Shown here in pieces: positions 19,861 to 39,237 of a DNA stretch of 64,000 nt. A model generated the notes under the pieces. It ran no database searches. It had not been told where the DNA came from and worked only from the letters and a program-made list of their open reading frames with translations. The stretch's first letter is position 1; every line of letters begins with the position of its first letter. Source of the DNA: Streptococcus suis (lineage in GTDB: Bacteria; Bacillota; Bacilli; Lactobacillales; Streptococcaceae). The position numbers and the translations under genes are program-made. The stretch covers positions 2,046,001 through 2,110,000 of the forward strand of contig CP102145.1 of assembly GCA_024583055.1 (NCBI GenBank), read 5' to 3'.

Positions 19861-20066
19861 AGCGGAGCGAGCCCTAAGCCAGGACTTTCCGCTGTGATGA
19901 AAATGAGAAACGTTGTCGTTTCGGACATTCGGAGTATTTGAGACCTTAGGCTCAAATACTAGGTATGGAATTCCGTAGGTAGCTCAAAACAGTCTGGGGG
20001 ACTGTTTGAGGAGTAAACCCAGAAACAAGAAAGTTTACTACCGTCCGACATCACCTCAGGAAAGTC
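19861..20066 (+). repeat. structured intergenic repeat (family 2, copy A)
   Basis: It begins AGCGGAGCGAGCC. The outer stem GACTTTCC (19883-19890) pairs with GGAAAGTC (20059-20066). A second stem GTGATG (19894-19899) pairs with CATCAC (20049-20054). Inside is a perfect 10-bp hairpin AGTATTTGAG / CTCAAATACT (19933-19960) with loop ACCTTAGG, plus a CAAAACAGTC / GACTGTTTG hairpin resembling a streptococcal BOX module. Copy B lies at 33090-33250. The rest of the 482-bp HU-yidC gap shows no gene. Confidence 0.7.
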
Positions 20067-30941: not shown

Positions 30942-32022
30942 AAGGTGTAAAAAAGGCAAATTTCAATTCCGAGTTAGCCACCTATAAGAAATTCTCTCGG
31001 TGACTTGTAGCCCAAACATTTTTTGGGATAGTTATTGATCCAATTTTCGATAAAAGCGACTTCTTTCGGGGTCGTTTTTGTGGTTCCTTTCGGCAACCAT
31101 CGTCGGATAAGCCTATTGTGATTCTCGTTCGTGCCTCTCTCCCAAGAGGAATAAGGGTGAGCGTAGTAGATATGTTCCTTCAGAAACACTTCTGACAAAC
31201 GACTAAACTCGGTTCCATTATCTGTAGTAATGGATTTGATTTGGAACTCCTTCAAGACGATTTTCAAGGCCTGATTCACAGCCTCAGCCGATTTATTTGG
31301 AATCAATCGAATGATTTGGTGGCGACTTCTCCTGTCCGTCAAGACCAAAAGGCATTTGTTTCTCGCTCTCGTCAATAGAACCGTGTCAATTTCATAGTGT
31401 CCAAGCTCCAGTCGAAGATTGATCACCTCTGGCCGCTCTTCAATTGACTTTCCAGCAGGCTTAAAGTTTGGACTCGCCTGTTTTTTAGTAGTCCTCCCTT
31501 TTCTAGGATAAAGCATATCCTTCTTGGTCAAGCCGAGATGCCCCTTGTGAATCCAGTAGTAGATGGTTGAAATCCCCACATTGATGTCCTTGGTTCTAAC
31601 CATCATTTCAGGCGAGAATTTTTCCATATTGTAGTGCCGAATTTTATCAGCGAGTTCCTTTGTTAAGCTCAGTTTTCTAACGGACTTTTTCCGATTTTTC
31701 TCATACAGATTTTGGGCATAATCAGCGGAATAGAGTTTTTTGAAGCGACCTTTTCGGACTTGTTGTAGGGTCGTCCCTCGTATCACTTCATTGTGAATGG
31801 TCTGCGGAGCCTTTCCCAATAAGCGAGCGATTTCCCGATTGGATTTCCCTTCGCCTTTCCACCGTTCAATTTGTCTGCGGTTTTCGATTGTCAAATGTTT
31901 TCCTTTTGGTGTATAATGTGTATGCATCTCCGTGTCTTCCTACCTTGTGTTTGTGGTGAACTACAAGTATAACACGGAGGTGTTTTCTTTTACCTACAAG
32001 GAACTTTCATTTGTCAACAGGT
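30942..32022 (-). mobile_element. IS30-family insertion sequence
   Basis: About 1.08 kb with one transposase gene. Imperfect terminal inverted repeats are visible: the left end contains GGCAAATTTCAATTCC, and the right end, read on the minus strand, TGACAAATGAAAGTTCC. The exact ends and target duplication could not be fixed. It lies right behind yidD and in front of a terminator hairpin and the trmL leader. Confidence 0.85.
30974..31927 (-). CDS. IS30-family transposase
   Basis: A 317-residue DDE transposase, apparently intact. The N-terminal helix-turn-helix contains KSNREIARLLGKAPQTIHNEV (read in part). The catalytic core has Asp in YEIDTVLL, Asp in TTDNGTEF, and Glu in RGTNENHNRLIR, the typical IS30 DDE spacing. 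The length matches the family (about 310-350). The leader is about 90 nt long, from 31928 to the element end. Confidence 0.95.
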   Translation of the reverse strand: MHTHYTPKGKHLTIENRRQIERWKGEGKSNREIARLLGKAPQTIHNEVIRGTTLQQVRKGRFKKLYSADYAQNLYEKNRKKSVRKLSLTKELADKIRHYNMEKFSPEMMVRTKDINVGISTIYYWIHKGHLGLTKKDMLYPRKGRTTKKQASPNFKPAGKSIEERPEVINLRLELGHYEIDTVLLTRARNKCLLVLTDRRSRHQIIRLIPNKSAEAVNQALKIVLKEFQIKSITTDNGTEFSRLSEVFLKEHIYYAHPYSSWERGTNENHNRLIRRWLPKGTTKTTPKEVAFIENWINNYPKKCLGYKSPREFLIGG

Positions 32023-32273: not shown

Positions 32274-32380
32274 ACGATTTCATTGATTTAACTCAAACCT
32301 GTTGTGAGTTAAGTGAATGAATCATCATTCACCATGCTGTTTGCTGAGCTTGACTCCGGGCAGTGTGGCATTTTTTTTAC
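32274..32380 (+). ncRNA. leader or small RNA with terminator upstream of trmL
   Basis: Two perfect 7-bp hairpins (TTAACTC / GAGTTAA and GTGAATG / CATTCAC) are followed by a terminator-like stem ATGCTGTTTGCT / GGCAGTGTGGCAT with one bulge, and then T8 at about 32373-32380. The terminator lies 20 nt before the trmL start. Transcription would therefore end before the gene unless read-through is regulated. It is either an attenuator leader or a small RNA of about 105 nt. No known riboswitch class was recognised. Confidence 0.5.
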
Positions 32381-32985: not shown

Positions 32986-33000
32986 GGTATCATTAAATAG

Positions 33001-33335
33001 TCTTCAGGGCAGGGTGAAATTCCCGACCGGCAGTGATTTTGTTAAGACAGTTTCTCTATTTTGAAAATTTTTCTTTGAGGGCGGCAGCAGGAGCGACCGA
33101 AGGTCGCAAGTCCGACGCTTGTCGCCGTGGTGAAAGTTATCCTATTTTTGAATAGGATGACAGGGGATTTTCGAGACCTTAGGCTCGAAAATAAGTCATG
33201 AAACCGAAGGTTTGCTGACGTCCCCACCACCTTAGACAAGTGTCAAAAAAGAAATTATCTAGTAAATAAGTCTGCGAGCGCAAGCTGATGTGGTGCAATT
33301 CCACAACCGACAGTACAGTCTGGATGGGAGAAGAC
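33001..33335 (+). promoter_or_regulatory. FMN riboswitch with enlarged variable loop
   Basis: The 5' half carries the conserved words TCTTCAGGGCAGGGTGAAAT and TCCCGACCGGCAGTGAT. The 3' half carries TCTGCGAGCGCAAGCTGATG, CCGACAGTACAGTCTGGATG and GGGAGAAGA. P1 is TCTTC / GAAGA. Together they form a full FMN aptamer, except that about 200 nt separate the two halves. A likely promoter is TTGCAG (32965), 17 nt, TATCAT (32988). Downstream, GGCC / GGCC and CAATTTT / AAAATTG hairpins (33343-33388) probably form the terminator or the site that hides the ribosome-binding site. Confidence 0.93.
33090..33250 (+). repeat. structured intergenic repeat (family 2, copy B) inside riboswitch
   Basis: It begins GGAGCGACC. 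The outer stem GACGCTTGTC (33114-33123) pairs with GACAAGTGTC (33235-33244). GTGGTG (33127-33132) pairs with CACCAC (33225-33230). The inner hairpin is ATTTTCGAG / CTCGAAAAT (33167-33192) around the loop ACCTTAGG. Copy A at 19861-20066 has the same loop and layout but different stem sequences, so the stems covary. The element sits in the variable arm of the FMN aptamer. Confidence 0.7.
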
Positions 33336-33399
33336 GAAGTAGTTGGCCTCGGCCTGCTCTTTTGGCCTTCTTCAATTTTCAAAAATTGGAGGAACCTTT

Positions 33400-37458: not shown

Positions 37459-37692
37459 TTATTTTTCGTCCTTGTCAAAAGCGTTTTTGATACCGTTGAC
37501 AGCACCTTCGAGGCCGTCTTTAGCATCTTCTACAAAGCCCTTGGCATCTTCGACCAACTCTTTAGCTTTGCCGAGCCCTTTTTCAACAAGACCTTCCGCT
37601 TCAAGCTCTTTATCACCTGTCAATTTGCCCAAGCCCTCTTTGACAGAACCAGTCAATTGATCTAATTTAGCACCGAATTTTTCTTCTGACAT
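37459..37692 (-). CDS. CsbD-family stress protein (first copy)
   Basis: A 77-residue hydrophilic helical protein of the CsbD type: [29 protein letters not shown], read in two parts, followed by Lys/Asp/Glu-rich helix repeats ([14 protein letters not shown]). The start ATG 37692 has GGAGG 5 nt upstream; an in-frame ATG four codons earlier overlaps that site. A paralogue lies at 38690-38896, so the two flank dpr. CsbD is a general-stress protein in Bacillus; its molecular function is unknown. Confidence 0.88.
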
Positions 37693-37754
37693 ATGAACCT
37701 CCAATAGATGTTATAGGGAGTGATGGGAGAAATTCCCACGTGTTGACTATCTAT

Positions 37755-38689: not shown

Positions 38690-38896
38690 TTATTCCTTAT
38701 CGAAAGCTTTTTTGATGCCGTCAACAGCACCTTCAATGCCATCTTTGGCATCTTCGACTAATTCTTTAGCCTTGCCTAGGCCTTTTTCCACAAGACCTTC
38801 GACCTCAAGGCCTTTATCGCCTGTTAGTTTTCCAAAACCTTCTTTGACAGAACCTGTCAACTGGTCGAGTTTTGCATTCAATTTATCTTCTGACAT
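38690..38896 (-). CDS. CsbD-family stress protein (second copy)
   Basis: A 68-residue paralogue of the protein at 37459-37692. It shares [12 protein letters not shown] and GKLTGDK plus [18 protein letters not shown], but lacks one helix repeat. Start ATG 38896 after AAAAGAGGTTTC. It is highly charged and lacks Cys. Together with the first copy it brackets dpr, suggesting a stress-response island; that grouping is inference. Confidence 0.87.
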
Positions 38897-38972
38897 AAGA
38901 AACCTCTTTTCTCTGCGTCACGGGTGGATAGCCACCGAGTAATCCTACCTCGTAGAACACGTTGATATATCT

Positions 38973-39085: not shown

Positions 39086-39190
39086 CGATATATACTATGT
39101 ATGTATCGTCATTTAGTTTTTCTTTTATTACTTCGTTAACTCGCCTTGCCTAACTCCAGTTATGCCTGCGGCTCGTTGCCTAGTACTAAA
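39086..39190 (+). promoter_or_regulatory. palindrome and repeat-like leader before ABC operon
   Basis: CGATATATAC-TAT-GTATGTATCG (39086-39108) is a near-perfect palindrome. It is followed by ACTTCGTTAACTCGCC and GCCTGCGGCTCGTTGCC (39129-39183), a string I recall as a common streptococcal intergenic repeat. No gene is seen between 38897 and 39237. Confidence 0.4.
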
Positions 39191-39237
39191 AGTAAACTAA
39201 AAGACTATAAGATGTTCAAGAAGTAGGAGGTAGAAAG

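Follow-up and report, generated by a model that had tools for sequence, protein, structure and literature searches.

The leader of ribU in the Streptococcus suis genome analysed here (GCA_024583055.1) contains an FMN aptamer whose two halves lie on either side of a 237-nt P3 loop, and the questions that this arrangement raises are what occupies the loop, how it came to be lodged in the arm of a sensing RNA, and whether the riboswitch is likely to have kept its function. The window, by which we mean the whole stretch of DNA that was analysed, comprises 64,000 nt (positions 2,046,001 to 2,110,000 of contig CP102145.1). The explanation that we favour, to which we would assign a probability of roughly 0.75, is that this is a genuine ribU FMN riboswitch bearing a structured repeat at the tip of P3, and that the fillings of this tip are exchanged among strains and species largely independently of ribU.

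The initial annotation of the locus had described two intact aptamer halves set far apart within a variable arm and joined by a closing stem, and each of these points is borne out. Comparison with other ribU aptamers finds all core words present in both halves (Table 1), and the locus resembles the FMN riboswitch of Rfam (RF00050) in these words, in the order of P1 to P6 and in its location before a riboflavin gene; it differs in the length and structured content of its P3 loop and in the loss of a full-length match to the model. The name ribU for the downstream open reading frame follows established knowledge of the family. In the minimum-energy fold of the leader P1 (6 bp), P2 and the base of P3 all form, the last as GCAG (33030-33033) paired with CTGC (33272-33275) around the long loop, and the closing stem pairs as well, with 33046-33055 interruptedly matched to 33250-33259 within it; P4 to P6 do not take their native form in the fold of the free leader.

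Table 1. Features of the ribU leader and its P3 insert, in coordinates of the window
Feature	Position	Strand	Basis
P1 5' strand GTCTTC, partner GAAGAC at 33330-33335	33000-33005	+	sequence; paired in minimum-energy fold
FMN aptamer, 5' half (P1, J1-2, P2, start of P3)	33000-33031	+	sub-threshold RF00050 match; comparison of ribU aptamers
P3 loop, 237 nt (conserved AGTGA at start, A adjoining AGTC at end, insert between)	33032-33268	+	
Interrupted stem at the foot of the inserted arm, 33038-33063 pairing with 33244-33266	33038-33266	+	minimum-energy fold
5' hairpin of inserted element, GCGACC-GAA-GGTCGC	33093-33107	+	folds
Insert core: outer stem GACGCTTGTC (33114-33123) / GACAAGTGTC (33235-33244) around nested stems	33114-33244	+	alignment A1, row 1; outer stem in this row read by eye
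Match to Rfam RF02616 (SSRC8_2), model positions 140-240 of 281, 45.1 bits, E 1.9e-11	33155-33249	+	covariance model
FMN aptamer, 3' half (P3 3' strand, P4, P5, P6, P1 3' strand)	33269-33335	+	RF00050 match 33238-33339
Putative expression platform	33327-33392	+	first hairpin from fold; second helix by eye
ribU, substrate-binding subunit of riboflavin transporter, 185 aa	33400-33957	+	open reading frame; relatives by sequence

Downstream of the aptamer the fold includes a hairpin, GGGAGAAG/CTTCTTC, that competes with P1, and a candidate helix recognized by eye, CTTCAATTTT/AAAATTGGAG, would cover the ribosome-binding GGAGG of ribU. If FMN were to hold P1 together, CTTCAATTTT would be free to mask this GGAGG and the device would act as an off switch. 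The competing hairpin is no better than those of shuffled sequences (z -0.87; 34 of 200 equally good), so this mechanism is offered as a sketch, and a scan for promoters and terminators returned consensus matches only. Elsewhere in the window, a 23S-methyl RNA motif (RF01065, 84 bits) lies at 32277-32375, directly 5' of a trmL-like gene; a 317-aa reading frame on the reverse strand (30974-31927) reads by eye as an IS30-family transposase; and two copies of a sequence with the look of a CsbD-type stress protein gene, 77% identical and 1204 nt apart, occupy 37498-37697 and 38702-38901.

The RF00050 model, with its cut-off of 66.2 bits, divides the window aptamer into two overlapping pieces, 33238-33339 (41.8 bits) and 32996-33172 (38.5 bits), both below that cut-off, and it returns no above-threshold FMN match anywhere in the genome. 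This is the only, and an indirect, point in favour of regarding the locus as a relic that the insert has broken, with ribU expressed constitutively or dead. When the same model was run on 12 related loci, nine gave a single full match (99.6-119.3 bits for P3 loops of 6-128 nt, divided into 108-119.3 bits at 6-43 nt and 99.6-103.4 bits at 109-128 nt), whereas the three that were missed (L072, L170 and L074) have loops of 230-237 nt; the missing annotation here therefore goes with the length of the insert and not with loss of the aptamer. Core positions, moreover, are equally conserved in long-loop and short-loop aptamers across the genus, ribU is open in the window, and RibU is encoded downstream of all 213 aptamers tested. 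A broken riboswitch is in our judgement highly improbable.

It is clear that the filling of the arm is itself a structured RNA. Folded alone, the insert reaches -83.4 kcal/mol (z -6.6, with none of 200 shuffles equally good), and 83 of the 84 pairs of this fold are kept in that of the leader. Its core (33108-33262) belongs to a dispersed and strongly covarying family related to SSRC8_2 (RF02616), with which it shares the same nested stems over model positions 140-240; the match in Table 1 is partial and below the Rfam cut-off of 72 bits, and the insert is accordingly described as a relative of SSRC8_2 and not filed as a member. It differs further in lying inside an mRNA leader and not in a free-standing gene, its own relatives being a dispersed repeat. 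SSRC8 (Streptococcus sRNA 8) was detected in S. pyogenes by Northern blot (PMC3675131). The RF02616 search of the S. suis genome gives nine matches at E <= 0.001, the insert included and none above the cut-off, of which another falls within the window at 19927-19993; in the genus at large matches occur in 126 of 147 genomes, as against none of 14 controls.

The family was aligned with unguided MAFFT (alignment A1; 36 rows, comprising the window and 35 of the 63 loci matched among 66 searched). Of 42 base pairs, 33 show changes on both sides; the alignment scores 0.598 for covariation, where shuffled alignments give 0.169 (none of 500 reaches the observed value) and sliding of the pairing partners gives no more than 0.122, and 95.9% of cells are paired, against 72.8% and at most 44.9%, respectively, in a set of which several rows are closely related to one another. 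SSRC8-like repeats are a real dispersed family of structured RNAs, of which the window insert is a fairly complete short form. That the second repeat proposed by the initial annotation might be a product of chance was considered, and is ruled out by the covariance-model matches together with the covariation. The proposal holds at the level of structure and fails at that of DNA identity: a search for repeats of at least 40 nt found no other copy in the window, blastn of the insert against its own genome returned only itself, and in other genomes the best of its partial relatives reach 85-88% identity across 66-93 nt.

Several observations on the family elsewhere may be set down here. Two full-length relatives in the same genome, L051 (1502-1811) and L062 (1498-1860), lie between two copies of one hairpin, which in L051 is a 24-nt palindrome, AACCAGTAACACCTGTTACTGGTT, exact on either side, and in L062 shares 13 exact nt of a similar pair, as if these elements had inserted into and duplicated terminator-like palindromes; L064-L066 have no comparable long shared flanking word. 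In comparison with L051 some copies (L062, L064-L066) carry an extra internal module of about 50-60 nt, seen by eye, which brings to mind the modular E-B-F organization of BOX elements in S. suis. Copies in opposite orientation stand some 13-28 kb apart in several genomes, for example at 235221(+)/249450(-) on C1 of G060, 27233(+)/41550(-) on C4 of G062 and 351059(+)/364254(-) on C1 of G119. Short-form members are found just 5' of genes read by eye as metK (L063), rfbB (L067, L003) and purE (L016), where a cis-regulatory use is possible.

A more economical account would treat the long P3 as ordinary variation of FMN riboswitches, for which a mobile repeat is unnecessary. RFN elements have variable and facultative stem-loops, the Rfam consensus has a variable P3 loop, many aptamers bear short P3 extensions, and 18 of the 215 loops compared below could not be classified by our reference inserts. 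For the window insert itself nothing speaks for such an account; the insert core has homologues across the genome and the genus that covary as one family, the distribution of RF02616 matches sets the genus apart from the controls, and a related insert, the B type, has partial matches elsewhere in the same genome. Ordinary variation is very unlikely as an explanation of this arm.

The arm was then placed among its counterparts in the genus. The search covered 284 genomes of the genus, 280 of them with a 26-nt pattern from the 5' half of the aptamer; the ribU leaders of 204 loci were taken from these further genomes, which with the window and 12 named loci made 217 complete aptamers, one more (L083) being dropped for want of a complete aptamer by the search pattern. 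Two loci, L207 and L221, were removed because their contigs equal those of L081 and L080 in length and they were taken to be duplicates, which left 215 (1 + 12 + 202). The constancy of the 5' half in this collection is in part a consequence of selection, since the loci were found by it; the 3' half, which was much less part of the pattern, is also constant, the block from the P3 3' strand to P6 (AGTC..GGGAG[AG]) measuring 63 nt in 199 of 217 aptamers and 63-70 nt in all of them. P3 loops range from 6 to 331 nt, with at least 80 nt in 136 of the 215, 46-79 nt in three and no more than 45 nt in 76. All 136 long loops keep [AG]GT[GA][AT] at their start and 125 end in an A adjoining AGTC, which places the inserts above a conserved base of P3. 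The arm had been thought unusual, and as an isolated oddity it is not.

The P3 tip is occupied by different repeats in different genomes of the genus. The inserts include SSRC8-like sequences, RepSU1/BOX-like repeats in either orientation, and nested types; by likeness to reference inserts they are labelled D (59 loops), E (25), B (10, one with the first unit only), BOX-like plus E (6), C (6), H (5), G (4), R (3), A (2, the window and L074) and D with a nested BOX-like repeat (1, L269), besides the 18 unclassified and the 76 short loops. The references are not wholly distinct: E, B1 and H are mutually similar, D weakly resembles B1, C resembles D reversed, and R and B2 resemble C. The names BOX and RepSU1 are presumptive for these inserts, given by likeness to the BOX consensus and to the description in Croucher 2011. 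The B-type insert found in ribU leaders of S. suis has a partial match elsewhere in the window, a RepSU1/BOX-like repeat at 39117-39196 (80% identity across some 80 nt). Second FMN aptamers of the same genomes have P3 loops of at least 80 nt in 7 of 16 cases; the seven (L288-L290, L292, L293, L299 and L302, 106-148 nt) are probably those of rib operons.

Among 17 S. suis-like genomes every ribU arm is long (93-331 nt), with inserts of type A in two, B in nine, C in five and an unclassified one in the last; the loop of S. gallinaceus (L081) is 25 nt. It had been proposed that a repeat landed in an arm tolerant of changes in length. What stands of this is that the P3 tip holds a family member with the aptamer core and closing stem kept; arrival in a previously compact arm finds no support in this lineage, all 17 of these arms being long. 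The comparison with other S. suis leaders that the initial annotation suggested as a check yielded other inserts and no empty arm in this group, and 15 of the 17 long arms are of other types, an outcome that by the initial annotation's own standard counts in part against it. The window insert may have replaced an earlier insert.

That insert and gene have separate histories is suggested by comparisons at several distances. The window insert is identical to that of L074 (S. suis HCJ31) at 232 of 236 positions (98.3%), in contrast to 430 of 558 (77%) for ribU and 410 of 543 for trmL upstream. L129 and L106 share an aptamer and insert that are 95-98% identical, with unrelated DNA beyond about 60 nt upstream and a diverged ribU; conversely, L129 and L130 agree at 85-100% over the 960 nt that precede the aptamer and at 95-100% over about 700 nt after it, and carry inserts of type D and E, respectively. 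The B insert of L080 matches that of L072 at 95-100% by segment, with 25 gap columns, and the flanking genes of L080 are closest to those of the C-type genomes L076-L079.

The same separation can be followed on a tree of ribU, bearing in mind that this was built from 360 nt by a quick search, that the gene may itself recombine, and that seven of the 215 loci (L170, L183, L269, L275, L278, L279 and L285), with less than 300 nt of ribU, were omitted from trees and pair counts, which removes five of the six BOX-plus-E loci and the nested one. Among the 84 D and E genomes insert type requires 21 changes, against a shuffled mean of 21.9 (lowest 19), whereas bases of the flanking aptamer follow the gene: the J1-2 base requires 11 changes (24.7 shuffled, lowest 20), the L2 bases 31 (44.8, lowest 37) and the L5 bases 14 (31.7, lowest 26). 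Type differs in 27 of the 57 D/E pairs with ribU identity of at least 0.98, and nearest neighbours share a type in 58 of 84 cases, slightly above the 48.5 expected by chance (P 0.032). Insert similarity correlates with ribU similarity well within E (Mantel r 0.79) and poorly within D (0.18), and the expression platform compared with ribU gives r of 0.83 and 0.84. Swapping is not unlimited, because the distributions of all insert types (53 changes against 113.3 shuffled) and of long and short arms (19 against 61.7) are phylogenetically structured, both over 208 of the 215 sequences.

These data bear directly on the possibility that the inserts are old, vertically inherited and kept by a function of their own, such as tuning of folding or stability, with ribU either evolving fast or itself replaced. 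Between the window and L074 the insert shows the same degree of conservation as the two halves of the aptamer, D and E loops have median pairwise identities of 0.93 and 0.92, both types are single-copy and confined at full length to the ribU leader in the 32 genomes searched by blastn, and E follows ribU, all as vertical descent would have it; strong purifying selection on the insert could be an alternative source of such high identity. It is harder to accommodate L129 and L130, whose near flanks and ribU are so alike and which differ mainly in the insert, the frequent differences in type between nearly identical ribU genes, aptamer bases that follow ribU where the insert hardly does, and the 76 aptamers that do without an insert. 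We consider vertical descent unlikely.

A different alternative is that the repeats transpose afresh each time with a preference for hairpins, P3 being a recurrent target and exchange between strains playing no part. It would account for different repeat types at one place, in either orientation, and for the BOX-like repeat nested within D in L269, and the full-length relative L051, between its two hairpin copies, is what such a preference might leave behind; short and filled arms differ, by eye, by a segment bounded by 5-nt direct repeats (TTAGC, TTTCC), a pattern that fits deletion as well. No target duplication is claimed for the window insert, as the longest word duplicated on its two sides measures 9 nt and falls outside the junctions with the aptamer. 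Transposition requires donors, however, and the window insert has no close one in its own genome. For D and E the other matches in the 32 genomes either span just 23-51 nt or, in G000 and G176, are weak at 74-78% identity across about 80 nt, which makes ongoing transposition from local donors unlikely for these types, and the suggestion that they are repeats currently multiplying finds no support. The spreading envisaged by the initial annotation calls for caution, the two commonest insert types of other streptococci being single-copy by blastn in these genomes apart from such short or weak matches. Where close donor copies are lacking, local transposition does not readily account for inserts that are almost the same in distant backgrounds, and as a complete account it appears rather doubtful.

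Exchange of arms between strains is the reading to which we return. D and E appear to travel in this way, and the simplest route would be uptake of DNA followed by homologous recombination, with the conserved halves of the aptamer as anchors. In our reading the tip of P3 is a tolerant socket which repeats refill and whose fillings recombination swaps. A more specific formulation, which we hold tentatively and at somewhat less than even odds, is that the aptamer halves are recombination anchors and the P3 tip a site for exchangeable cassettes in naturally transformable streptococci, with arms that may tune the switch; the swapped tracts would have to be short enough for bases of the aptamer some 20-30 nt to either side to stay linked to the gene. 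Natural competence is a property of mitis-group streptococci.

How such an insert could be tolerated is suggested by its structure. The P3 base with its conserved GGURA/AAGUCC element remains where it was and the insert is seated above it; P3 and P5 are in contact in the FMN aptamer. The ends of the repeat are complementary, and the RNA therefore folds back so that they lie side by side and the P3 hairpin is extended without separation of the aptamer halves. Folds and covariation establish that the insert folds on itself, and from this we infer its tolerance in the cell. As the insert precedes the 3' half, completion of the aptamer during transcription would be delayed, and the spacing between the completed aptamer and the platform would stay the same.

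It seems likely that function is retained with an insert in place. Genome G039, presumed to be S. pneumoniae, has a ribU aptamer (L121) with a 128-nt P3 loop of type E, besides a second FMN aptamer (L297). The FMN riboswitches of S. pneumoniae TIGR4, that of SP_0488 (ribU) included, repress in reporter assays (PMC10942264), and it is the conjunction of this repression with the 128-nt insert that makes function likely. A 0.2-kb transcript of the FMN riboswitch was seen in S. pyogenes in riboflavin-replete medium (PMC6460267).

Some elements of this picture are already known. Repeats have been described in leaders, among them that of the pneumococcal trp genes, where a BOX element separates two T-box riboswitches (Croucher 2011; PMC3049150), and variable P3 loops are part of the Rfam consensus. 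BOX/RepSU1 elements of S. pneumoniae and S. suis are small, structured, dispersed and modular, and other P3 inserts resemble them; the trp element, however, lies between riboswitches, whereas the window insert lies inside a single aptamer. The main text of Croucher 2011 (PMC3049150) contains no mention of 'FMN' or 'riboflavin', and among the matches listed from open-licence PMC papers, in such text as they offered, none concerned repeats inside an arm of the FMN aptamer or the exchange of riboswitch arms. What the analysis adds is that this known riboswitch has in its P3 arm a hotspot for structured repeats that appear to be exchangeable.

For annotation the consequences are practical: the Rfam model missed all three tested aptamers with loops of at least 230 nt, as well as that of the window, and P3 loops of at least 200 nt occur in 19 of the 215 ribU aptamers, so that automated annotation may under-report such aptamers. 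The genus also provides a natural panel, with P3 loops of 6-331 nt on a near-identical core, on which the effects of arm length and co-transcriptional timing can be tested. If the proposed explanation is true, a sensing RNA would possess a tolerated docking point for mobile repeats, and the architecture of a riboswitch could evolve through arm swaps between species.
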